Shown: in pieces, positions 24,502 through 39,836 of the stretch | Numbering within the stretch: position 1 is the stretch's first letter | Layout: the number at the start of each line of letters is the position of its first letter | From: Oligoflexia bacterium | GTDB lineage: Bacteria > Bdellovibrionota_G > JANQFH01 | Reading direction: 5' to 3' | Assembly: GCA_028277945.1 (NCBI GenBank) | Contig: JANQFH010000068.1 | Location: 336,400 to 400,399 of the forward strand | DNA: 64,000 nt | Notes under the pieces: generated by a model | Told to the model about the DNA's origin: nothing | The model's input: only the letters and a program-made list of their open reading frames with translations | Database searches by the model: none | Position numbers and translations under genes: made by a program

Positions 24502-26472
24502 GTGAAGCAAACGCAAAAGAGCTGGATACTGTGGCCTCTTCTAGTGCTTATGGTGCTACTGGTCCTCAGCGTCATGAACCGTGTTCCAGGTCAGGTTCAA
24601 GAGGTTGATTACAGCAGGTTTCGCCATTACGTGCGTCTTGGTCTGATTGCCTCAGTCAACATCAAAGGCAATGACATTACTGGGAAGTTCAAGGAAGAGT
24701 TTCCTCCGGAAAGCGGAGAGCTTTCTGTTGAAGAGCTAGAATTTGCAGGCAAGCGTTACCATACTTACACCATGGGTACGGGCGATGAGCTGATCAAATT
24801 TCTTGAAGAGAATCAGGTAGAGCAGTTTACCTCAAAGCCACAAGAAAAGGCGCCCTTCTGGCAACAACTGTTGATCAGCTGGCTACCGATGATGGTTATG
24901 ATATTCTTACTCTTCTTTCTCTTTCGTCAGATCCAGGCCGGTGGTGGCAAAGCACTGAACTTTGGTAAGAGTCGGGCACGTCGCCTTACCGAAGATCAGA
25001 CGAAAGTCACCTTTGCCAATGTTGCCGGTGTTGATGAGGCCAAGCAAGAGCTTGAGGAGATCATCGACTTTCTTAAAGACCCGAAGCGCTTTACGCGACT
25101 AGGCGGTCGTATTCCCAAGGGGGTGTTGCTCGTCGGTCCGCCAGGTACAGGTAAGACTTTGTTAGCCAAGGCGATTGCGGGTGAGGCCGGTGTACCCTTC
25201 TTTAGCATCAGTGGGTCAGACTTCGTTGAGATGTTTGTCGGTGTGGGTGCGAGCCGTGTGCGCGATCTCTTTGAGCAAGGCAAAAAGAATGCCCCCTGTA
25301 TCATTTTTATTGATGAGATCGATGCCGTTGGTCGGCAGCGAGGTGCTGGCTGGGGTGGTGGACACGACGAACGCGAACAAACCCTCAATCAACTGCTGGT
25401 AGAGATGGATGGCTTTGAATCCAAGGATGGCGTTATTCTCATAGCTGCCACCAACCGTCCAGATGTGTTGGATCCTGCTCTATTGCGGCCGGGCCGATTT
25501 GACCGCCGTGTGGTGGTGCCCATACCTGATGTTAAAGGCAGGATGGGTATTCTTGAGGTGCACAGTGCCAAGACTCCTTTGGGAGAGGATGTTGATCTTG
25601 AGGTGTTGGCTCGTGGCACTCCTGGTTTCTCAGGTGCTGACTTAGAGAACATGGTGAATGAGGCCGCTCTCATTGCCGCCAGGAGAGATAAGTCAACGGT
25701 AGAGATGAACGACTTTGAAGTTGCCAAAGACAAGGTGATGATGGGTTCGGAACGGCGCAGTATGATTATTAGTGACGACGAAAAGAGAACCACGGCTTAC
25801 CATGAAGCGGGCCATGCCTTGGTTGCCAAACTGCTTCCGGGTACGGATCCGGTTCACAAGGTGACGATCATCCCGCGAGGCATGGCTTTAGGCGTGACGC
25901 AGTTGTTACCGAAGGAAGACAAGTACACCTTCAGCCAAGAGTTTGCCGAAAATCAGATCGCCTACATCATGGGAGGACGATGTGCTGAGGAGCTGATGTT
26001 GAAAGAGCGTACCACCGGAGCGGGAAATGATTTTGAGCGCGCCACCGAACTTGCGAAAAAGATGGTGTGTCAATGGGGCATGTCTGAGAAGCTTGGGCCA
26101 TTGGCCTATGGCAAACAAGATGATCAGGTATTTCTCGGTAAAGACTTTGTGCAGCGCAAAGAGTATAGCGAACGCACCGCACAGTTGATTGATGAAGAGA
26201 TCAAGCGCATTGTCGATGAGAATTACCAACGCGCGAGAGGCTTATTGAGCAAAAATGTTCAAAAGCTCGAAAACCTGGCCAAGGCGCTGCTTGAACACGA
26301 GGTTTTAGACGGTGATGAGGTAGACCAGGCGATAGCAGGTAAACCCATTCGTAGAAAACCGGATTCGGTTGCTGCCAAAGTTGCACGGCCTCGTGCCAAG
26401 CGAAAGTCGACAGCGCAAACAGCAACGGATAAGCCAGAGGAAACTGCAGAGGCGGAGTCTAAGGCCTCATGA
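24502..26472 (+). CDS. ftsH: ATP-dependent zinc metalloprotease FtsH
   Basis: 656 residues, normal length. Two transmembrane helices (about 9-27 and 122-142) flank the FtsH extracellular domain. The AAA module has Walker A GPPGTGKT (212-219), Walker [10 protein letters not shown] and the second region of homology ([21 protein letters not shown]). The zinc site HEAGH is at residues 434-438. The GTG start follows tilS by one base, and the stop overlaps the cdaA ATG by 4 bases. It degrades misassembled membrane proteins and some regulators. The C-terminal 40 residues are basic and low-complexity, as often seen. Confidence 0.97.
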
Positions 26473-27278
26473 GTGGCATTCCCACAATTACTCTAGTCGA
26501 TATTTTGGACATCCTCTTGGTTGCCGCGATCATCTATCTGTTACTGCTGTTGATTCGTGGTACTCGCGGCATCTATATGCTTGTTGGGCTGCTGATTTGT
26601 GGTGTGGTACTCTGGCTCGCTAACCTTTTTGAACTGCGTGCGCTGGGCTCTATCCTGGGTCAGCTCTTTTCTAGTCTGATTTTGGTGATTGTCGTAATTT
26701 TCCAACATGACATCCGTCGGGTTCTTACTAAGGTTGGGCGTTCGCCATTTTTTAAACGACAATCACTTCAGGAGCGGGAGACCTTAGAAGAGTTGGTTAA
26801 GACTTCGGTCTCTCTGGCGAACAAAAAGATCGGCGCGCTCATTGCTATAGAACGTGGTGGTAACTTGGTGGACCATGTTGAACAGGGTGTGCCGGTTGAC
26901 TCACTCGTCAACAAGGATCTGCTGACGTCGATCTTTCTGCCGGTCTCACCCCTACACGACGGCGCCGCAGTGATTCAGGGCGCGCGCGTTGTCCAAGCTG
27001 GCTGTTTATTACCGTTATCCATGAGTGTTAACGTCACTAAGGTCTACGGCACACGGCACCGTGCTGCCATTGGCCTCACTGAAGAGACCGATGCTGTGGT
27101 GATTGTAGTTTCTGAAGAGCGTGGTGTGGTCTCTCTTGCCGTAGAGGGCAAGATTGAAGACAACTTGGATGCTGTACGTCTCCGCGAGCGTTTACTAGAT
27201 ATGTTTGGTCCGCAGAATCGTCTGCAGTGGTTTCGTACTATTTTGCAGAATCGATTTGCAATTGCGAAGAGAGAATGA
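26469..27278 (+). CDS. cdaA: diadenylate cyclase CdaA
   Basis: 269 residues. Three N-terminal transmembrane helices (residues about 10-75) precede the DisA_N cyclase domain. The active-site motifs DGAAVIQG and GTRHRAAIG are intact, as is the SEERG segment, so synthesis of c-di-AMP from two ATP is expected. The folP gene found between ftsH and cdaA in some related genomes is absent. It overlaps ftsH and cdaR by 4 bases each (ATGA), giving a tightly coupled ftsH-cdaA-cdaR unit. In other bacteria CdaA is controlled by CdaR and GlmM; here both are encoded downstream, but glmM is displaced by 4.2 kb. Confidence 0.95.
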
Positions 27279-28528: not shown

Positions 28529-28573
28529 CATTATAATTGCAAAATATGATAAAATATTGCATTATAATTGCAA
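28529..28573 (+). repeat. 14-bp direct repeats before DUF4143 ATPase copy 2
   Basis: CATTATAATTGCAA occurs at 28529-28542 and 28560-28573, exactly 31 bases apart (about three helical turns). The second copy is the right part of the start-codon palindrome. Two bound proteins would lie on the same face of the DNA. Confidence 0.7.
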
Positions 28574-28576
28574 TAT
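28554..28576 (+). promoter_or_regulatory. palindrome fused to the start codon of DUF4143 ATPase copy 2
   Basis: ATATTGCA (28554-28561) and TGCAATAT (28569-28576) flank TTATAAT. As in copy 1, the last AT of the right arm is the AT of the start codon, which reads ATGG. TATAAT (28563-28568) is a perfect -10 whose start point would be the A of ATG at 28575, implying a leaderless mRNA. A 14-bp block is also directly repeated at 28529-28542 and 28560-28573, 31 bases apart. Confidence 0.65.
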
Positions 28577-29711
28577 GGGACTTTATCAGCGAACACTGAA
28601 TCTACCTGCTTTGCTGGCAAAAAAGTCTTTCTTTCTTTTTGGGCCCCGTGGCACTGGCAAGACGACTTTAGTCAAGCGGCAATGCCGGGGGGCACGCATT
28701 ATCGATCTGCTGGATGCCCCTGTTTTTTCTGATCTGCTCAGAAATCCTCAGCTCATTGGCGAGTACGCGTCTGGTCTGATCGTCATTGATGAAATTCAGA
28801 AGCTTCCTAGTTTGCTTGATGAAGTACACCGGCTCATGGAGAGTAAACGCAACAATAAATTTCTTTTGACAGGAAGCAGTGCTCGCAAACTGAAACGGGG
28901 GAGTGCCAATCTCTTGGCTGGACGAGCATGGTGGGCTGAACTCTTTCCACTAACGTTTAACGAGATTGATGATTTTGATCTTTTAACCTATCTCAATACG
29001 GGTGGGTTGCCGGCTATCTATGGTAGCTCTAATGCCACAGAGGAGCTACGAGCCTATTCGGCTCTCTACTTGAAAGAGGAAGTGCAACAGGAGGCGCTGA
29101 CTCGAAAAATAGCGAGTTTTGCAGAGTTTCTAGAGCTCATAGCTCTATGTGTTGGCGAGGAGCTGAACTACCAATCGTTATCCAGCGACCTAGGCGTGGC
29201 GGTTAATTCCATTAAGAATTTTATTGAGGTTTTAGAAGACACCCTTATTGGCTTCTCCTTGGCAGCCTATACCAAAACAAAAAAACGAAAAGCGATCACT
29301 CGTTCGAAATTTTACTTGTTTGATGTTGGAGTTGCCAACTATCTGGCAAAAAGAGGTCAAATTTTTGCTGGATCGGAACTCTTTGGTAAGGCTTTTGAGC
29401 ACTTTATTATACAAGAAGTACGTGCTTATCTATCCTACGCTAGGAGAGACTTAGCAATAAGCTATTGGCGGTCGACGTCAAAATTCGAGGTAGACTTGAT
29501 TGTTGGCAATGAATATGCCTTGGAGATCAAAGCGACCAAGTTGGTTCAGGACAAGCACCTAAAAGGTCTCCGTGCTTTTAAAGAGGAGCAGTTAATAAAA
29601 CAATTTGCGGCCATTAGTTTAGACAGGGATGAGCGCGTAACCCATGATGCCATTAAAATATTACCTTGGAAAACTTTTCTCAGAAGGATGTGGGTAGGAG
29701 AGCTGTTCTAA
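28575..29711 (+). CDS. AAA+ ATPase with DUF4143 domain (copy 2)
   Basis: 378 residues from the ATG at 28575. An in-frame TTG at 28557 exists, but the ATG is favoured by domain fit and by the palindrome. Walker A is GPRGTGKTT and Walker B LIVIDEIQ; TGSSARKLKRG is the family's sensor-like motif. The DUF4143 half shows SSDLGVAVNSIKNFIEVLEDT (winged-helix-like) and a C-terminal nuclease-like strand pair (KFEVDLIVGNEYALEIKATK). It is inserted between cdaR and glmM, separating genes adjacent in related genomes. No Shine-Dalgarno is present. The sequence differs strongly from copies 1 and 3. Confidence 0.85.
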   Translation: MGLYQRTLNLPALLAKKSFFLFGPRGTGKTTLVKRQCRGARIIDLLDAPVFSDLLRNPQLIGEYASGLIVIDEIQKLPSLLDEVHRLMESKRNNKFLLTGSSARKLKRGSANLLAGRAWWAELFPLTFNEIDDFDLLTYLNTGGLPAIYGSSNATEELRAYSALYLKEEVQQEALTRKIASFAEFLELIALCVGEELNYQSLSSDLGVAVNSIKNFIEVLEDTLIGFSLAAYTKTKKRKAITRSKFYLFDVGVANYLAKRGQIFAGSELFGKAFEHFIIQEVRAYLSYARRDLAISYWRSTSKFEVDLIVGNEYALEIKATKLVQDKHLKGLRAFKEEQLIKQFAAISLDRDERVTHDAIKILPWKTFLRRMWVGELF

Positions 29712-29719
29712 ACGTATTC

Positions 29720-30052
29720 ATGTCAGAAGTAATGCAAGCTTATACAAAGCAATGGCAGGGCCTAAAGCGTAGACTACGGTTGTTTTACTTAGTATGGCTT
29801 GGAGGTAGTCCTGTTATCCTAGTTGTCGGATGGCTGTTAAAGCTTAGTGGCGATGCTCTACTTAATCTTTTGCTAACTATGTGGGTCTTACCTTCTCTAC
29901 TTACGGGATTCCTATGGAGTTTTTGGCGCTGTCCCAGGTGTCGTAATTTTTTCTTTCTAAAAACATTGCCCACTTCACGACAGGCTAGGTACTTTTGGCC
30001 GCTATTTTCCAAATGCCTGCATTGTGGTTTACCGAAATGGTCCAGTGAGTAA
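29720..30052 (+). CDS. small membrane protein with a zinc-ribbon-like end
   Basis: 110 residues from the ATG at 29720, 8 bases after the ATPase. Two predicted transmembrane helices (FYLVWLGGSPVILVVGWLL and LLTMWVLPSLLTGFLWSF) precede a cytoplasmic end with CPRC and CLHC, separated by about 24 residues, a likely zinc ribbon. This arrangement occurs in small membrane proteins of unknown role. It shares orientation with the DUF4143 ATPase; the close spacing suggests co-transcription. Confidence 0.6.
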   Translation: MSEVMQAYTKQWQGLKRRLRLFYLVWLGGSPVILVVGWLLKLSGDALLNLLLTMWVLPSLLTGFLWSFWRCPRCRNFFFLKTLPTSRQARYFWPLFSKCLHCGLPKWSSE

Positions 30053-30262
30053 TTTTAGAAAGGTATTCGTCTGCTTTTTGTACTATCTCAATAAAGCTTG
30101 AGTTTTGACCTCTAATGCGTTAGCGACCGAGGGGTAGGGTAATACCTAGCTCTCGAACAGACTAAGCCTTATGTAAGTGATTTTCGATAGTTGTTTATGC
30201 GCCTTGAAAAAAAATAGCTTTTGTAGGAGATTGATAGCCTAAATCAAGCTTCGGAATTCAGC
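30053..30262. other. AT-rich gap before the 641-aa gene
   Basis: 210 bases with no gene, RNA or repeat that I recognise. It presumably carries the promoter for the following gene; no clear -35/-10 pair stands out. Confidence 0.4.
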
Positions 30263-32188
30263 ATGTGTTCTAACACCAATCGGCCTCTCCTCATTTTGTT
30301 CTGCATTGCTTGCACTCCTCTAACGCTTTGGGCAGCTCCTCAAGGCGAACGTGAAGCTGTAACACTCTGCGACCCTATACTTAGACCGGAGTTTGTTGAC
30401 GGTGAGCCAGTAGACAAGGAAGCTCCAGCCAGGCTTTTAGCAGGCGACAAACCTGTAATGGTCCGGCTTCAAGCGTCAACCGTGACTTCATATAGTAGCG
30501 GCAAAACCTACACCCAGTACGAAATTAGACTGGAAGACGACGTGATTGGTGCTATTCGCGTTGATGATGCGGGATGTCTTGTTGACGAGTTGTATTCTAT
30601 TACCGCGATCCGTAATCGGTTTTGGCTGCAGGCATTCGTTGATGAGGGCATAGGAGCGCTGCTCAACCGATATCATGATCATAAGGTCCACAGCGTTGTC
30701 CACTGGGGTAAGTTTGAAAAGTACCATCATGAAATTGCAACCGGTGTTGACTCTGATAATTTCAAAGCAATTGCAGCGACCGTAAAACAGTACATGATGG
30801 CACGTGAAGATCTTGAGCCGCGTACCTTTGAGTTTTTTAGAAACATAGACGAAAAAGAGTCTTTCGGATTGACGGATGGAACGAAGTACTATTCCTGCCA
30901 TGCAAACGAACGTGAATCAAAGCAATCGCATGGTCGGATACGACGTAAACACTTTTTTAGATTAACTAAAGATGGAACACTGACGCATATTATCGAGCCC
31001 CAATCCAATATTTACTCTGCAAATGAACTGAAGGTCGCCGGTTTGATAGCTTACCTAACCGCGTTGGGAGAGGATCCACGTGCAGCCTTTCCGGTTTTTC
31101 ACTTTACAATTCGTGGTAAGGCTTACGATCAGGGTGTTTACTACGTCGATGTAGATTACTACCAGACCCGTGATGGCCGCTTTTTTGTGAAGGAAGACTT
31201 CAGTTTGGGATACCGCTACGAACAAGCAGAAAACGCAGGTTCTGTTTTATTGGAATGGGCAAGGCGGTGTGCAGCAATGGAGGCAAGGTTATTTCCAGCA
31301 GCGATGACGCTCATGGATGCCTACGATGAAACGGAGCTGTTGTACACCTCAGATCGTATTGTAGACAGCAGTGTTGGTGTGGCTGAACGCAGACGTTTTG
31401 GTCAATACAGTGTGAACCGTATAACCGGTAAAACAACCTGTGAGAAGCTCTACGACTATTTTAAGCTGCCTGACACACCAGATTCAGGCAACGATGTGAT
31501 GCCAGAAGAATTCTTTGCATCATTGCCTGACGTTGCTCTGACACCCGGCGCGGAGCTACACTATAATGACCGCTTTATTCCAGAAGACTCAAGAGCGCTT
31601 GTTGGCGGTTGGATAACAACCGCTCTTGAACATTTGCAAGATTACGGTGCGGGCGAAAACTTAATAAGCTGGAAAGGCGATCAACAGGTTCTAGAAGGGA
31701 AAAGCGTTGTGATTACACCGGTACTTGCACTCGACCGCCGTGTTTCGACCATTGGCGGATTGGGTTCAGAAATAGTGAATGCGATTATGAATCCTGAAAA
31801 CCCGCTTTTTGGTACAACTGTGCTCACCGACCCACGTTCAGCTTCAACAGCAACAGCCTTTATTTTCATTGTAATAGACTGGGTGTTGTGGAATCGCAAC
31901 GAGACGGAAAAATCGGCCCATCGAGCAGAGTCCGACCTTACGGCTGTTTTAGCCCATGAGATATTTGGGGTGCTGCCGCCTTTTCTTGAGACCCCTATCA
32001 AGGATCTGCATAAAATTATTGCTCCAAGTAAACAGGCAGAGAGGGAGCGCAATGCCTTTGATATCGGCATTGCTTTTCAAACAGAAATAATCAACAGCGA
32101 TGCCTTTGGCTCATGGAGCCCAGAACGTCGACGAGCCTTCCTAGAGACCCGAGATCTACACCGAGATCTGCGCGCCACTTGGAAGTAA
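30263..32188 (+). CDS. large exported protein of unknown function
   Basis: 641 residues. An N-terminal signal peptide (hydrophobic run LLILFCIACTPLTLWAA, cleavage near residue 25) suggests export. The body has regions rich in aromatic residues and charges (VYYVDVDYYQTRDGRFFVKEDF) and one later hydrophobic stretch (ATAFIFIVIDWVLW, about residues 533-546) followed by AVLAHEIFGVLPPFLETP. The HE pair is not a full HExxH zinc motif. No domain is recognised. It sits inside the accessory stretch that separates cdaR from glmM; its ribosome site is weak (GGAAT). It could be an envelope enzyme or an effector. Confidence 0.6.
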   Translation: MCSNTNRPLLILFCIACTPLTLWAAPQGEREAVTLCDPILRPEFVDGEPVDKEAPARLLAGDKPVMVRLQASTVTSYSSGKTYTQYEIRLEDDVIGAIRVDDAGCLVDELYSITAIRNRFWLQAFVDEGIGALLNRYHDHKVHSVVHWGKFEKYHHEIATGVDSDNFKAIAATVKQYMMAREDLEPRTFEFFRNIDEKESFGLTDGTKYYSCHANERESKQSHGRIRRKHFFRLTKDGTLTHIIEPQSNIYSANELKVAGLIAYLTALGEDPRAAFPVFHFTIRGKAYDQGVYYVDVDYYQTRDGRFFVKEDFSLGYRYEQAENAGSVLLEWARRCAAMEARLFPAAMTLMDAYDETELLYTSDRIVDSSVGVAERRRFGQYSVNRITGKTTCEKLYDYFKLPDTPDSGNDVMPEEFFASLPDVALTPGAELHYNDRFIPEDSRALVGGWITTALEHLQDYGAGENLISWKGDQQVLEGKSVVITPVLALDRRVSTIGGLGSEIVNAIMNPENPLFGTTVLTDPRSASTATAFIFIVIDWVLWNRNETEKSAHRAESDLTAVLAHEIFGVLPPFLETPIKDLHKIIAPSKQAERERNAFDIGIAFQTEIINSDAFGSWSPERRRAFLETRDLHRDLRATWK

Positions 32189-32477: not shown

Positions 32478-33824
32478 ATGGCTAAGCTGTTTGGAACCGA
32501 TGGCATTCGTGGTACTGCCAATCAGGCGCCGCTCACGGTCGATATGATTACCCGGATTGCGCGGGCGGCAACCTACGCCCTCTCAGCACGTAAGGTGGTG
32601 CTTGGCAAGGATACCCGCCTCTCCTGCTACATGGTGGAGGCCGCACTCTCCGCAGGCTTCTGCTCTATGGGTGCGGATGTCTTGCTGGTGGGTCCCATGC
32701 CAACCCCTGGGATTGCTTTTCTCACTAACAATATGCGTGCCGATGCTGGGGTGGTGATCAGTGCCTCACACAACCTCTACCAAGACAACGGTATCAAGTT
32801 CTTCTCACACGAGGGTTACAAACTCAGCGATGAGCTCGAGGCAAAGATTGAGGCCTATGTTTTTGGCAATGATATTGACGATCATCTTCCCACAGCTGAA
32901 AACGTCGGTAGGGTCATGCGTATTAAAGAGAGTAAGGGGCGCTATCTTGTCTTTGTCAAAAACACCTTTCCGCAAGATCTCTCGCTCGAAGGTGTCAAGA
33001 TCGTGCTCGACTGTGCCCATGGTGCTGCCTATGCCGTGGCACCGTTGGTGTTGCAAGAGCTGGGCGCGCAGGTGATTGTCATGCATGCCGAACCAGACGG
33101 CAAAAACATCAATCAAAACTGTGGTGCGGTTCATCCCGAAGCCATGTGTCGGCGCGTCCTGCAAGAGTCTGCAGATATTGGCATTGCCCTTGATGGCGAT
33201 GGTGATAGGGCGATTTTTTGTGATGAAAAAGGCGAGGTGGTAGACGGCGACACGGTCTTGGCCATTGCCGCCATACATGCAAAGAAGAGCGATCGCCTTG
33301 CGGGTAACGGCGTCGTTGGTACGGTCATGAGCAACTACGGTTTTCGTACCAGCATGGAGAAACACGGTATCGACTTTGTGCAGACCCATGTTGGGGATCG
33401 TTACATTGTCGAGGCGATGCGTCGAGGCGGCTATAATCTCGGAGGGGAACAGTCTGGACATATCATCTTTTTGGATCACAATACTACAGGCGATGGCTTG
33501 GTGACGATGTTGCAGCTTCTAGCAATTATGGTTGCCAGTGAAAAGCCACTGGGTGAGCTGCGCCAGGTGATGCAACGCTTTCCACAGGCACTGGTCAACG
33601 TGGCGGTGCAGGAGAAGCGCGACTTTGATGCCATGCCTAAGGTGCGGCAGGCGATTGCTGCGGTGGAGTCCTCGCTGGGCAAAGAGGGGCGGATTCTTGT
33701 GCGCTACTCTGGTACGGAAAAGCTTGCCCGTATCATGGTTGAGGGCGCTGACCAAAAGCAGATCGTCGAGTTCGCCAACCGGGTTGCCGAGGTGATTAAA
33801 CAGGAGATTGGCAGAAGTGGTTGA
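32478..33824 (+). CDS. glmM: phosphoglucosamine mutase
   Basis: 448 residues, the standard length. It converts glucosamine-6-phosphate to glucosamine-1-phosphate for UDP-GlcNAc synthesis. It starts KLFGTDGIRGTAN; the phosphoserine loop is SASHN with Ser97 catalytic; the metal loop DGDGDR keeps its three aspartates; GGEQSGHIIFLDHNTTGDG is the sugar-binding loop, and RYSGTEKLARIMVEG the phosphate-binding end. The usual Pro after SASHN and after SGTE are Leu and Lys, minor departures. GlmM is also a known inhibitor partner of CdaA. It heads the glmM-pdxJ-acpS-nnr-tsaE operon. Confidence 0.96.
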   Translation: MAKLFGTDGIRGTANQAPLTVDMITRIARAATYALSARKVVLGKDTRLSCYMVEAALSAGFCSMGADVLLVGPMPTPGIAFLTNNMRADAGVVISASHNLYQDNGIKFFSHEGYKLSDELEAKIEAYVFGNDIDDHLPTAENVGRVMRIKESKGRYLVFVKNTFPQDLSLEGVKIVLDCAHGAAYAVAPLVLQELGAQVIVMHAEPDGKNINQNCGAVHPEAMCRRVLQESADIGIALDGDGDRAIFCDEKGEVVDGDTVLAIAAIHAKKSDRLAGNGVVGTVMSNYGFRTSMEKHGIDFVQTHVGDRYIVEAMRRGGYNLGGEQSGHIIFLDHNTTGDGLVTMLQLLAIMVASEKPLGELRQVMQRFPQALVNVAVQEKRDFDAMPKVRQAIAAVESSLGKEGRILVRYSGTEKLARIMVEGADQKQIVEFANRVAEVIKQEIGRSG

Positions 33825-34527
33825 GCTAACCGTCAATCTTGATCCTATCGTTGGTCTGCGCGGCCTGGGTCGTAGCCAGCGGCCAGATCCGGTTGCCGCC
33901 GTTTTTGCCGCCGAGCACGCCGGCGCATCGGGCGTCTCTATCTCTCTGCGTGAAGACAAAAAGCAGGTGGGTGAGCGTGATTTACGTTTGCTCAAAGATG
34001 TCGTGCGTGGACATTTCAACGTTGAGATTGAACCGACTCAGGAGATGCTCAAGTTGATGTTAGAGTTGCGGCCGAGTTCAGTCACACTGGTTGATGTTAG
34101 TGGCGATGCTGTCAAAGAGCTGGATATTGCCTTTGACCAAGAGAAGATTGTCAACTTTGTTGTGTTGCTGCGTGAAGCGCAGATCGAACCACGTATCCTT
34201 ATTGCTCCGGATTTGGATCAGCTGCGCGGCGCACATCGTGCAGGCGCCGTAGGCGTTGAGGTGAGCACTTGGAGCTATGTGGGCGCAGCCAATGCACAGA
34301 GCCGCTCCCAGGAGAGACAAAAGATTATCGATGCCCTTAAGGTAGGACAGCGTTTGCATTTACAACTCTTTGCTACCGGAGGGTTAGACTATCAAAACGT
34401 GGCTCCATTGGCGTCCATCGATTCGCTTGTCGGTGTCAAGGTTGGCCACAGTATTATTGCCAAGGCCCTTACCCATGGATTGGAGCGATCGGTGGCAGAG
34501 ATGGTGCAGCTGCTTAGGACTTCATAG
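33817..34527 (+). CDS. pdxJ: PdxJ-like protein lacking hallmark active-site residues
   Basis: 236 residues from the GTG at 33817, chosen by family length and GGAG 10 bases upstream; it overlaps glmM by 8 bases. The TIM-barrel sequence clearly belongs to pyridoxine 5'-phosphate synthase: VNLD, RPDPVAAVFAAEHAGA, LRED, NVEIEPTQEML, VKVGHSIIAKAL. Yet the histidines normally in NIDH, VHLRED, RRHI and AGHGL are Pro10, Ser43, Gln50 and Gly (in ATGGL), and the TEGGLD loop is missing. Glu70 and Arg45 remain. By established knowledge those histidines bind substrate or catalyse ring closure, so pyridoxine phosphate synthesis is doubtful. It may be a pseudoenzyme or have changed substrate. Position (glmM-pdxJ-acpS) is the usual one. 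Confidence 0.82.
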   Translation: MVELTVNLDPIVGLRGLGRSQRPDPVAAVFAAEHAGASGVSISLREDKKQVGERDLRLLKDVVRGHFNVEIEPTQEMLKLMLELRPSSVTLVDVSGDAVKELDIAFDQEKIVNFVVLLREAQIEPRILIAPDLDQLRGAHRAGAVGVEVSTWSYVGAANAQSRSQERQKIIDALKVGQRLHLQLFATGGLDYQNVAPLASIDSLVGVKVGHSIIAKALTHGLERSVAEMVQLLRTS

Positions 34528-34530
34528 CCC

Positions 34531-34908
34531 ATGTTGGAACAGGTGGAAATTCTCAGCCTCGCAAGCTTTCGGCGTTTGTGCGCCAAATCGGCAGGGGAGT
34601 GGCGCACATGGTTTCATCCGTTAGAACGGGAGCATTTTGGCGATCGTCAAGAGCACCTTGCCCCTAGGCTAGCGGCTAAACGCGCTCTGGCAAACCTAGC
34701 AACAAAACTGCCAGCAGGTTTCGGCTCGCTAGACCAAAAGCGGTTTGAGCAGATGGCGGTTCTTAGACAGAAGGAGGCGCGGCCTCGCTTGTATGTTGGG
34801 CCTAAAGCTCAGTTGGATCCTCGTTTTTTCATCAGCCTGAGCTGCGACCGAAACTATGCCGGTGCCTATGTGCTGTTCTGGGATGAGGAGATCGTATGCG
34901 CGTGTTGA
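34531..34908 (+). CDS. acpS: holo-ACP synthase-like protein with altered metal site
   Basis: 125 residues, normal for AcpS, in its usual place between pdxJ and nnr. AcpS transfers phosphopantetheine from CoA to the acyl carrier protein. Family features are LEQVEIL (aligned to DIVEI), APRLAAKRALANLA (aligned to the AAKEA motif), RPRLYVG and ISLSCDRNYAGAYVL (aligned to LSHDR). The Mg2+-binding Glu of KEA is Arg51, the Asp of the first motif aligns with Glu3, and the His of SHD is Cys105. These changes make normal catalysis unlikely. It starts 3 bases after the pdxJ-like stop and overlaps the nnr start by 13 bases. Confidence 0.75.
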   Translation: MLEQVEILSLASFRRLCAKSAGEWRTWFHPLEREHFGDRQEHLAPRLAAKRALANLATKLPAGFGSLDQKRFEQMAVLRQKEARPRLYVGPKAQLDPRFFISLSCDRNYAGAYVLFWDEEIVCAC

Positions 34909-36497
34909 GTAGTGAGCAGATGCAGCGGCTTGATCGTTTTACAATCGAAGAGATTGGTATTCCGTCGCTGATACTCATGGAAAACGCGGGCCACGCTGTA
35001 GCCGCGACTGTGAGAGCTTTGGTGTTGGAGCAAGATGAGCGCGAGCCAGTCGATGTAGTGGTTTTTTGTGGACCTGGCAATAATGGTGGCGATGGCTTTG
35101 TGGTTGCAAGAGATCTCCTTGCGGCTGGGATGCAACCGCAGGTCGTAGTGGTAGGCAAGGAGGTCAAGAAGTTAACGGGAGATATCCGTAAACAGGTAGA
35201 GGTTTGGCAGCAGCTACAGCAGTCTATTACGGTTGTGCGTCATGCAAAGGATCTTGCTCTGCTTGAGCAGGGTATTGGGGACGCAGAGGTTATTGTGGTC
35301 GATGCGCTCTTTGGCACTGGGCTCGATCGTCCTCTAGAGGGAGTCTTTGCTACAGTGGTTGAATGGATCAACGCCAACGCCGCTTTTATCATCAGTGTTG
35401 ACCTACCCTCTGGCCTACACAGTGATGATGGCCGCCTACTTGGCACTGCCGTTAAAGCGGACCATACAGTTACCCTTGCCTATCCGAAGTGGGGTCTCTT
35501 TGTCGGTCACGGGCCAGAGCAGTGCGGTACGCTAGAGGTTGTTGACATCGGTATTCCCGCTATAGCGCTGCAACAGCTTAGTGATCCAACGGTAGAGTTG
35601 ACAGAGCCACAATCCGTTGCCGCTGCCATGCCGCCACGGTCGTTGCAAAGCCATAAGGGTGATCATGGCCATGTGCTGCTGCTTGCTGGATCGCCAGCAA
35701 AATCGGGCGCTGCCATTCTTGCGGCAAGAGCGGCTATGCGATCGGGTGCGGGTCTAGTGACGCTGGCAACACCAGCGAGTGCTCATGCGATTATCAAGCC
35801 GGCACTGACCGAAGTGATGAGCTTACCGCTTTCAGAAGAGGGCAGTGATAGCGGTATGCTTGCTGCAGAGGCGTGGGATGCTATTGAGACGGCCCTCCCT
35901 GGTAAACAGGTAATTGCTTTGGGTCCAGGGCTGATTCCAAGCGCAACTCTAACGCAGTTGATCCTACAGATTGTGCAAACGGTTGACCTGCCCGTGATTC
36001 TCGATGCTGATGGCCTCAACGCGATAGTTGCGCATAGCAAAGCACTCAAGCAGGCACGCGCCAAACTCATCCTTACGCCCCACCCCGGCGAGATGGCACG
36101 GCTAATCAACAGCAGTGCTAAAGAGGTACAGCAACATCGATTAAAAGTCGCACAACAGTTTGCCCGTGAACACGACCTCTATTTAGTGCTGAAGGGGTTT
36201 CGTTCTCTCATCGCCTTTCCGGATGGACGGCTCATGATCAACCCCACTGGCAATCCAGCTATGGCAAGTGCCGGGGTTGGTGACGTGCTCACCGGTATGC
36301 TCGCAGCCTACATCGCCCAGAGCGGCGATGTCGAACGAGCCCTGCCGGCGGCGCTCTTTAATCATGGCCGTCTCGGCGACCAACTCGCTGAAGAAAAGGG
36401 TGAGCGAGGCCTAATTGCCTCGGACCTCATTGACGCCATTCCGGCTTTGCACGCCAAGAGCTATCCGCATGAAGAGAGCCACACTATTTTCGCTTGA
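34896..36497 (+). CDS. nnr: bifunctional NAD(P)H-hydrate epimerase / ADP-dependent dehydratase
   Basis: 533 residues combining the NnrE-like N-terminal domain (residues 1-215; LILMENAGHAVA, CGPGNNGGDGFVVARDL, DALFGTGLDRPLEG) with the ribokinase-like NnrD domain (about 225-510; KGDHGHVLLLAGSPAKSGAAILAA, LTPHPGEMARL, GNPAMASAGVGDVLTGMLAA). The enzyme repairs damaged NAD(P)H hydrates. Motifs of both halves are complete. It overlaps the acpS-like gene by 13 bases and the tsaE start by 29 bases, so translation is probably coupled along this operon. Confidence 0.95.
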   Translation: MRVLSSEQMQRLDRFTIEEIGIPSLILMENAGHAVAATVRALVLEQDEREPVDVVVFCGPGNNGGDGFVVARDLLAAGMQPQVVVVGKEVKKLTGDIRKQVEVWQQLQQSITVVRHAKDLALLEQGIGDAEVIVVDALFGTGLDRPLEGVFATVVEWINANAAFIISVDLPSGLHSDDGRLLGTAVKADHTVTLAYPKWGLFVGHGPEQCGTLEVVDIGIPAIALQQLSDPTVELTEPQSVAAAMPPRSLQSHKGDHGHVLLLAGSPAKSGAAILAARAAMRSGAGLVTLATPASAHAIIKPALTEVMSLPLSEEGSDSGMLAAEAWDAIETALPGKQVIALGPGLIPSATLTQLILQIVQTVDLPVILDADGLNAIVAHSKALKQARAKLILTPHPGEMARLINSSAKEVQQHRLKVAQQFAREHDLYLVLKGFRSLIAFPDGRLMINPTGNPAMASAGVGDVLTGMLAAYIAQSGDVERALPAALFNHGRLGDQLAEEKGERGLIASDLIDAIPALHAKSYPHEESHTIFA

Positions 36498-36981
36498 GTC
36501 TGCCACTACTGAGGCGACCGAGAGCATTGGCCGACGTTTTGGTAGGCATTTGCGTGCGGGCGATCGAGTCGCGCTCACAGGCGAGTTGGGTTCTGGTAAG
36601 ACGACTTTAGTTCGTGGTGTGGCGCATGGTATGGGTATTGATCCACAAGAGTGGGTCTCTAGCCCTACTTATGCCTTGCTCCATGAGTACCGCGGCCCAC
36701 TGACTCTCTACCACTTTGATCTCTATCGTATCCGCCACGAAGCTGAGGTCTTAGACCTTGGCCTTCCCGAATACCTGCGGCGGCAGGAGGACAAAACCAG
36801 AGACCATGTGGTTGTGGTAGAATGGGCCGACCGTATGGCGCTCAAGTTTCCGCCTGGCAGCTTTTACGTTACTATAGAGTGCATGGTTGGTAATGATAGC
36901 TCAGAGCTGCAACGCCGGATCTGCTTTGGTCACGATGAAGCCAGGGGCGCCGACTTTTTTGATTTTATGGAGCGCCAGTAG
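36469..36981 (+). CDS. tsaE: tRNA threonylcarbamoyladenosine biosynthesis ATPase TsaE
   Basis: 170 residues from the ATG at 36469 inside the end of nnr; an upstream in-frame start at 36415 would add residues absent from the family. Walker A GELGSGKTT lies at about residues 38-46, followed by SSPTYALLHEY, LYHFDLYR and VVVEWADR, all diagnostic of TsaE. It works with TsaB and TsaD to install t6A37 in ANN-decoding tRNAs. Its stop abuts the next ATG (36982) with no gap. Confidence 0.94.
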   Translation: MKRATLFSLESATTEATESIGRRFGRHLRAGDRVALTGELGSGKTTLVRGVAHGMGIDPQEWVSSPTYALLHEYRGPLTLYHFDLYRIRHEAEVLDLGLPEYLRRQEDKTRDHVVVVEWADRMALKFPPGSFYVTIECMVGNDSSELQRRICFGHDEARGADFFDFMERQ

Positions 36982-38600: not shown

Positions 38601-39836
38601 ATGGCGCGGTTGGTGCAAAAATTTGGCGGTGCAGCGGTTGCTGGCTTGGAGCGTGTCTCTGCGGTTGCTGAGCAAATTAAAAAGGCGTGGAGTAACAACC
38701 ACGAAGTCGCGGTCGTTGTTTCAGCCATGAAGGGAGAGACCGATCGTCTTGTCTCCTTAGCGCAGCAGGTTATGCAGCAGCCAAACTCACGCGAGTATGA
38801 TGTGTTGGTGAGTTCAGGGGAACAGGTCTCTGTGGCTCTCTTGGCCATGGCGCTTAACAAGATCGGCGTACCCGCATGCTCTCTGCTTGGCCATCAGGTA
38901 CGTATTCGTACTGACAGTAGCCATGCACGCGCTAAGATTCTCTCGGTTGATACCAATCGCGTTAAGGAGCTGCTCACAGTCAAGAAGGTGCCGGTGATTG
39001 CGGGTTTTCAAGGCATTGATGCCCACGAGGAGCTTACCACCTTAGGGCGGGGCGGCTCGGACCTCACTGCAGTCGCCTTGGCCGCAGCACTTGCAGCAGA
39101 GACCTGTGAGGTCTACAAGGACGTTGACGGAGTTTTTACAGCCGATCCACTTGTCTGTGGAGATGCAGCGCTGATTGAAACAGTGTCTTATGAAGAGATG
39201 ATGGAGCTTGCCAGTAGTGGTGCTAAGGTTTTACAAACCAGAGCAGTGCTGTTTGCAAAAAACTCTGGTGTTTCCATTCATGTAAAATCTTGCTTTAACT
39301 GGGATAGGCCCGGTACCCAAGTCGTTAGTGAGGACAAGCTTATGGAAAAGGCAGTTGTCTCGGCAGTCACCATCGATAAGAATGAGGCCAAGATCGGTAT
39401 CGATCGGCTTCCTGATAAACCAGGAGTGGCTGCGAAACTCTTTTCAGCTTTGACAGAGAAAGAAATCTTCGTTGACATGATCGTGCAAAATGTCAGCTCC
39501 GAGGGTAATTGTGCCTTAGCATTTACGGTTCCCAAGGATCAGGTGGAAGAGGCTTACGCCATTGTCAAGCAGCTCTGTCAGGAGCATGGCTGGGGTGGCG
39601 TGCTTAAAGATGAAAAGGTCGCTAAGGTTTCCGCAATTGGGGTTGGCATGCGGACCCACAGCGGTGTCGCATCGCAGATGTTTCAAGCGCTTGCTGAAGA
39701 GGGAATCAATATTACCATGATCGGCACCTCGGAGATCCGCATATCCTGTCTTATTGAGGAGAAGTATGCCGAGCTGGCACTACGTACGCTTCACGAAGCT
39801 TTTCGATTGGGGCAGCCCAACCCCAACAAGAGCTAG
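38601..39836 (+). CDS. lysC: aspartate kinase
   Basis: 411 residues, monofunctional type. It phosphorylates aspartate, the first step to lysine, threonine and methionine. Family motifs include VVSAMKGETDRL, LVSSGEQVSVALLAMAL, AGFQGIDAHEELTTLGRGGSDLTAVALAAAL and DVDGVFTADP, then two ACT domains (about 265-405), ending in MRTHSGVASQMFQALAEEGINITMIGTSEIRISCLI. One departure is that the KFGGTS nucleotide/substrate motif reads KFGGAA (Ala11, Ala12). It lies after the inverted-repeat element and probably starts its own transcript. Its last 71 bases overlap the next gene. Confidence 0.94.
   Translation: MARLVQKFGGAAVAGLERVSAVAEQIKKAWSNNHEVAVVVSAMKGETDRLVSLAQQVMQQPNSREYDVLVSSGEQVSVALLAMALNKIGVPACSLLGHQVRIRTDSSHARAKILSVDTNRVKELLTVKKVPVIAGFQGIDAHEELTTLGRGGSDLTAVALAAALAAETCEVYKDVDGVFTADPLVCGDAALIETVSYEEMMELASSGAKVLQTRAVLFAKNSGVSIHVKSCFNWDRPGTQVVSEDKLMEKAVVSAVTIDKNEAKIGIDRLPDKPGVAAKLFSALTEKEIFVDMIVQNVSSEGNCALAFTVPKDQVEEAYAIVKQLCQEHGWGGVLKDEKVAKVSAIGVGMRTHSGVASQMFQALAEEGINITMIGTSEIRISCLIEEKYAELALRTLHEAFRLGQPNPNKS

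Follow-up and report, generated by a model that had tools for sequence, protein, structure and literature searches.

The question raised by this locus is whether a gene that stands in the usual place of pdxJ, and whose product resembles PdxJ, still encodes a PNP synthase. The window, i.e., the whole stretch of 64,000 nucleotides analyzed here, comes from the Oligoflexia bacterium genome G000 (C59:336400-400399). From its letters, a sequence-only reading had proposed that the usual pdxJ place in the operon holds a pseudoenzyme, or an enzyme acting on a new substrate, and that vitamin B6 is made by another route or taken up.

The pdxJ-like gene and its operon

The open reading frame has been confirmed in the sequence, with GTG at 33817 and the stop at 34527. 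Its start overlaps the stop of glmM by 8 nt, an arrangement from which translational coupling of both genes may be expected. The standard order around PdxJ is cdaA-ybbR-glmM-pdxJ-acpS-nnr-tsaE, and the window gene occupies the pdxJ position in the order cdaA, ybbR-like, three inserted ORFs, glmM, pdxJ-like, 125-aa ORF, nnr, tsaE, HEAT-repeat gene, and lysC:

26469..27278, plus strand: cdaA (diadenylate cyclase), 5' end of the conserved order (TIGR00159, 218 bits, above cut-off)
32478..33824, plus strand: glmM, upstream operon partner (TIGR01455, 593 bits, above cut-off)
33802..33806, plus strand: AGGAG, probable ribosome-binding site 10 nt 5' of the GTG (sequence; inference)
33817..34527, plus strand: pdxJ-like gene lacking the PNP-synthase active site, 236 aa, GTG start (PF03740; active-site table; AlphaFold2/Foldseek)
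34531..34908, plus strand: acpS-slot ORF, 125 aa, strongly divergent AcpS-like (NF011253 at E 9e-4 only; acpS slot in L091/L095)
34896..36497, plus strand: nnr, NAD(P)HX epimerase-dehydratase (TIGR00196/TIGR00197, above cut-off)
36472..36981, plus strand: tsaE (TIGR00150, above cut-off)
38601..39836, plus strand: lysC, aspartate kinase, last gene of the conserved order (NF005155, above cut-off)

The ybbR-like gene, so named from its position, gave no NCBIfam match. Between it and glmM, three ORFs at 28557-32188 interrupt the otherwise conserved operon; they comprise an AAA_14/DUF4143 ATPase, a 128-aa ORF, and a 641-aa protein lacking a confident family match. Two genomes of the same phylum (G001 and G003, with PdxA and lacking PdxS) have canonical PdxJ directly 3' of glmM, and the order glmM-pdxJ-acpS-nnr, with intact PdxJ, is found in the deltaproteobacterial (Myxococcota-type) loci L091 and L095, continuing in L091 to tsaE and lysC. 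By this comparison of slots, the window gene descends in position from a functional pdxJ, namely the ordinary one of this operon. The neighboring acpS-slot ORF has no Pfam match, shows AAKRA instead of AAKEA and lacks GxDI, so that from its motifs it seems to be a second disarmed enzyme in the same operon; the erosion of this slot could reflect relaxed constraint in that part of the operon. Another ACPS-domain protein of the window genome is encoded at C10:446184-446366, with the motifs GFDI and FCAKEA. A clustering of nnr with pdxJ and acpS has also been reported, together with a possible second, B6-related role of nnr (PMC5938422).

The window protein is a member of the PdxJ family according to Pfam (PF03740, 181.7 bits against a cut-off of 24.5), and it scores under every NCBIfam PdxJ equivalog cut-off compared, including those of TIGR00559 (157.3 against 192.75) and of the best equivalog, NF003625 (180.8 against 190). 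An AlphaFold2 monomer model built with 36 homologues (pLDDT 93.7, pTM 0.90) has a TIM-barrel fold. In the comparison with PdxJ structures that the sequence-only reading had suggested, this fold matches the crystal structures, the first 16 PDB matches by Foldseek being all PdxJ chains (best TM 0.93-0.96); because the alignment is made of PdxJ relatives, the model indicates compatibility of the sequence with the barrel only.

Loss of the active site

The ligand and catalytic positions of PdxJ (E. coli numbering, Met1 counted) are those of UniProt entry P0A794, in which the annotated catalytic residues are His45, Glu72, and His193. In the window protein these three are Ser, Glu, and Gly, respectively, so that the catalytic set of a PNP synthase is incomplete. 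Altogether, His12, Arg20, His45, His52, Thr102, and His193 are lost, and 7 of the 13 ligand/catalytic positions are retained (Asn9, Asp11, Arg47, Glu72, Gly194, Gly215, and His216), as is Glu153. Canonical PdxJ proteins from many phyla (n=114) retain at least 12 of the 13, and a value of 7 is far from chance. Outside this set, changes are found at 14 of 30 conserved positions. The alignments bear out the residues described previously, i.e., Pro10, Ser43, and Gln50 in place of histidines (E. coli His12, His45, and His52), the retention of Arg45 and Glu70 (Arg47 and Glu72), and a glycine for the histidine of AGHGL (ATGGL in the window protein), and they add two losses that had been missed, Arg20 to Gly and His155 to Ser. 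The claim that the TEGGLD loop is missing holds in part: E104, G105, and G106 are deleted, and other residues stand at T102/T103 and at the PEK..E before them, but Leu-Asp stays, so that the loop is not wholly absent:

34102..34131 (approximate), plus strand: shortened lid GDAVKE---LD replacing the catalytic TTEGGLD lid (alignments)

The mobile lid of PdxJ comprises residues 95-105, and its closure is required for catalysis (PMC10471632); the window protein has no complete lid of this kind.

The vitamin B6 route

In the window genome (2.86 Mb, 95.6% complete), a profile search found one PdxJ match, the window gene itself, and no match to the PdxA family PF04166, so that no PdxA supplying the substrate of PNP synthase was found in this assembly. 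Instead, a locus with the order GntR/aminotransferase (MocR-type) regulator, pdxS (C59:74113-74730), and pdxT is present. The adjacent pdxS and pdxT score above the NCBIfam cut-offs (TIGR00343, 449.7 bits; TIGR03800, 158.1 bits), PdxS has both lysine motifs (VMAK and RTKGEAGTG), and the two genes of the DXP-independent pathway are thus both in place. Contamination of the bin was considered as a source of PdxST and ruled out: a binning error cannot account for the locus, because it lies on the window's own contig. Vitamin B6 in this bacterium therefore appears, from its gene content, to be made via PdxS/PdxT and not PdxJ. In four other genomes of the phylum, PdxA is always present, PdxS is always absent, and PdxJ is canonical in three. 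The search for a second pdxJ, for pdxA and for PdxS/PdxT that the sequence-only reading had called for was accordingly negative for the first two and positive for the third, and its proposal, that the slot now holds a pseudoenzyme or an enzyme for another substrate while B6 comes from a different route, is supported by the single PdxJ, the lack of PdxA, the regulator-pdxS-pdxT locus, and the slot.

These results bear on the possibility that the protein is still a PNP synthase, with a rearranged active site. Membership in the Pfam family and the retention of Glu72 and of about half of the ligand positions would agree with it, but, of the three annotated acid/base residues, only one is left, the lid is incomplete, no PdxA is there as a source of substrate, and a complete PdxST locus is present, which makes this explanation highly improbable. 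The residue losses, the alternative pathway genes, the slot, and the predicted fold are all read from sequence; PNP-synthase activity has probably been lost in the window protein.

Erosion of PdxJ in genomes with PdxS

Among 385 genomes, PdxJ was found in 256, PdxS above cut-off in 105, and both in only 15. In 12 of these 15 (active sites read in 14, G232 being left out) the PdxJ site is eroded, taken as 8 or fewer of the 13 positions retained, a threshold chosen post hoc after inspection of the data. In PdxJ genomes lacking PdxS, an eroded copy occurs in 2 of 241 (G094 and G191), where unread PdxJ proteins, all of about 270 bits or more, were taken as sound, contig-end fragments excepted. The difference is significant by Fisher's exact test (p ~3e-16), although the genomes are not independent and the 12 eroded ones represent 11 families. 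The other two PdxJ proteins read in genomes with PdxS belong to one family and carry E72Q (G092) and T102H, H193R, and G194S (G361); in them, the same erosion may have only just begun. In both (L055 and L069, respectively) the rest of the site is nearly intact. In G115, an eroded second copy accompanies a near-canonical one. Other altered PdxJ proteins were also observed. Two named deltaproteobacterial ones have partly altered sites (L154:5001-5708, K9/Q12/R193; L137:5001-5711, S9/N11/K72), and a separate type with N11/K12/W107/Y155/D194, in which His45, Glu72, and His193 are retained, occurs in L057, L059, L060, L062, L066, and L067; in G064 this type is a second copy beside canonical PdxJ.

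Eroded copies are especially frequent in candidate division KSB1 (the phylum of G048), where a PdxJ match was obtained in 76 of 82 genomes, the scores falling into two clear classes. When the active site was read (n=70, including two named records; the residues of L088 are the same as those of the G416 copy, so that the count is possibly one or two lower), 30 copies were canonical and 40 eroded. About half of the KSB1 genomes have an eroded copy. A large subgroup has fixed a new set of residues (C9, N11, Q12, D52, A72, Q153, and N155, mostly with R193, and with R or W at 216). PdxS was positive in both of the two members G048 and G324. Eroded or canonical, KSB1 PdxJ is encoded 3' of a divergent polysaccharide deacetylase (PF04748) and a lipoprotein (e.g., L085:3036-4790). 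Since eroded copies keep the neighbors of canonical ones, the erosion in KSB1 took place in situ; a functional link of deacetylase and lipoprotein specific to eroded PdxJ was rejected, as the canonical copies share these neighbors. The lipoprotein has no Pfam family, and related lipoproteins adjoin eroded PdxJ in G077 and G348.

The fixed KSB1 pocket is one of the observations that would fit a new enzyme, in which the barrel acts on a different substrate; others are the retention of Glu72 and Arg47 and the combination Ser45/Gln52/Gly193, common to the window protein and that of G094, both in the glmM slot. Nevertheless, no new acid/base constellation is conserved across all groups and no metabolic gene context indicates a substrate, so that catalysis on another compound seems rather improbable.

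Selection, drift, and origin

Eroded copies in KSB1 and in G077/G218 are clearly under strong purifying selection. For the G077/G218 pair, from one genus, dN is 0.114 and pS 0.744, which gives a dN/dS of ~0.03 with dS saturated, and close pairs of KSB1 copies yield 0.03-0.15 when eroded and 0.03-0.09 when canonical. No close relative of the window protein was found in the genome contigs searched, and selection on the window copy itself is presumed. In a drift simulation, 30 of 150 neutral full-length runs reached or exceeded its score, and with active-site columns removed its z was 0.1. As z was also ~0 for the clearly selected G077/G218 copies, this simulation lacks power and is counted neither way. 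Under drift, about five stops are expected at the divergence of the window copy and none is seen (P ~0.03), which is the sole mark of constraint in this copy itself.

These data are also those on which a drifting relic has to be judged, i.e., a PdxJ that became useless once PdxST was gained and is decaying, its frame being open by chance or for the coupling of glmM with downstream genes. The simulation does not reject decay for the window sequence, the 14 altered positions outside the active site agree with it, and the adjoining acpS slot is eroded too. On the other hand, neither stop nor frameshift has appeared despite the number of stops expected, the predicted fold is intact, and strong purifying selection acts on the parallel copies of other phyla. 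Simple decay is thus unlikely, even if less so than the new enzyme.

With respect to origin, in a tree including the KSB1 rows the eroded KSB1 copies nest within canonical KSB1 PdxJ (98/94, 99/94, and 96/89), and the window protein lies elsewhere, grouping with that of G094 (93/91). The best tree has three changes to the eroded state, of which at least two are forced by well-supported (starred) branches. One ancient eroded clade is not favored, given this nesting and the forced changes, although a single clade is compatible with the AU test (p 0.19) and long branches make placement unsure.

Proposed explanation and significance

The explanation that we prefer, with a probability of roughly 60%, is that of a PdxJ-derived non-synthase retained for another role after B6 synthesis was handed over to PdxST. 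With this transfer, PNP-synthase chemistry would have been lost (His12, His45, His52, His193, Arg20, Thr102, and part of the lid), while the TIM barrel would have been kept and would still be co-translated behind glmM. The present role would not involve PNP synthesis, and our guess as to its kind is a pseudoenzyme that binds a phosphate ligand or acts as a scaffold, because Asn9, Arg47, Glu72, Gly194, and Gly215-His216 remain. A selected second role is presumed for the window protein, and by analogy the homologous cases elsewhere favor it; it is graded no higher because the window substitutions are indistinguishable from drift, in a test of low power. The window protein would then be an ordinary PdxJ by descent and not a PNP synthase by function, and one case of a pattern that recurs.

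More tentatively, and somewhat against the odds, PdxJ might have a widespread second function outside B6 synthesis that becomes visible when B6 passes to PdxST: in several lineages separately, the site would erode and the protein would stay in its ancestral operon under selection. If true, PdxJ-derived non-synthases would form a recognizable, conserved class of pseudoenzymes, currently annotated as B6 enzymes. In the excerpted text of one survey, pdxJ is used as signature of the DXP-dependent pathway, and ten bacterial genomes, including Caldithrix abyssi and Fibrobacter succinogenes, seem to have both B6 pathways, the DXP-dependent one being judged possibly incomplete; PdxJ active sites are not considered in that text (PMC9997740). 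That PdxJ is usually disarmed alongside PdxS offers a reason for this apparent incompleteness, and automatic pathway calls from pdxJ would be wrong in whole lineages. No paper on a disarmed PdxJ was found in the open-licence literature, judged by titles and abstracts, and what such a disarmed protein does for purifying selection to preserve it across much of a phylum is a testable question.

Comparison with known systems

One parallel is the PdxJ-like protein of G094 (L035), also encoded directly 3' of glmM, with the same Ser45/Gln52/Gly193 triple and with Arg47, Glu72, and His216 retained; the identity is only 27%, and neither PdxA nor PdxS was found in G094 by the same searches, unlike the window genome, where PdxS is present. 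The eroded KSB1 proteins (L085, L087, L088, and ~36 more genomes) resemble the window protein in fold family, lost active site, and ancestral neighborhood, but differ in their PF04748/lipoprotein context, in their replacement residues, and in forming their own lineage inside KSB1 PdxJ. Finally, with the PdxJ proteins of E. coli (1HO1/1M5W) and Pseudomonas aeruginosa (5DLC) the window protein has in common the fold (TM 0.93-0.96, at 32-36% identity), the operon slot, and Asn9, Asp11, Arg47, Glu72, Gly194, Gly215, and His216; it differs from them by the absence of His12, Arg20, His45, His52, Thr102, His193, and three lid residues, in a genome that lacks PdxA and has PdxST.
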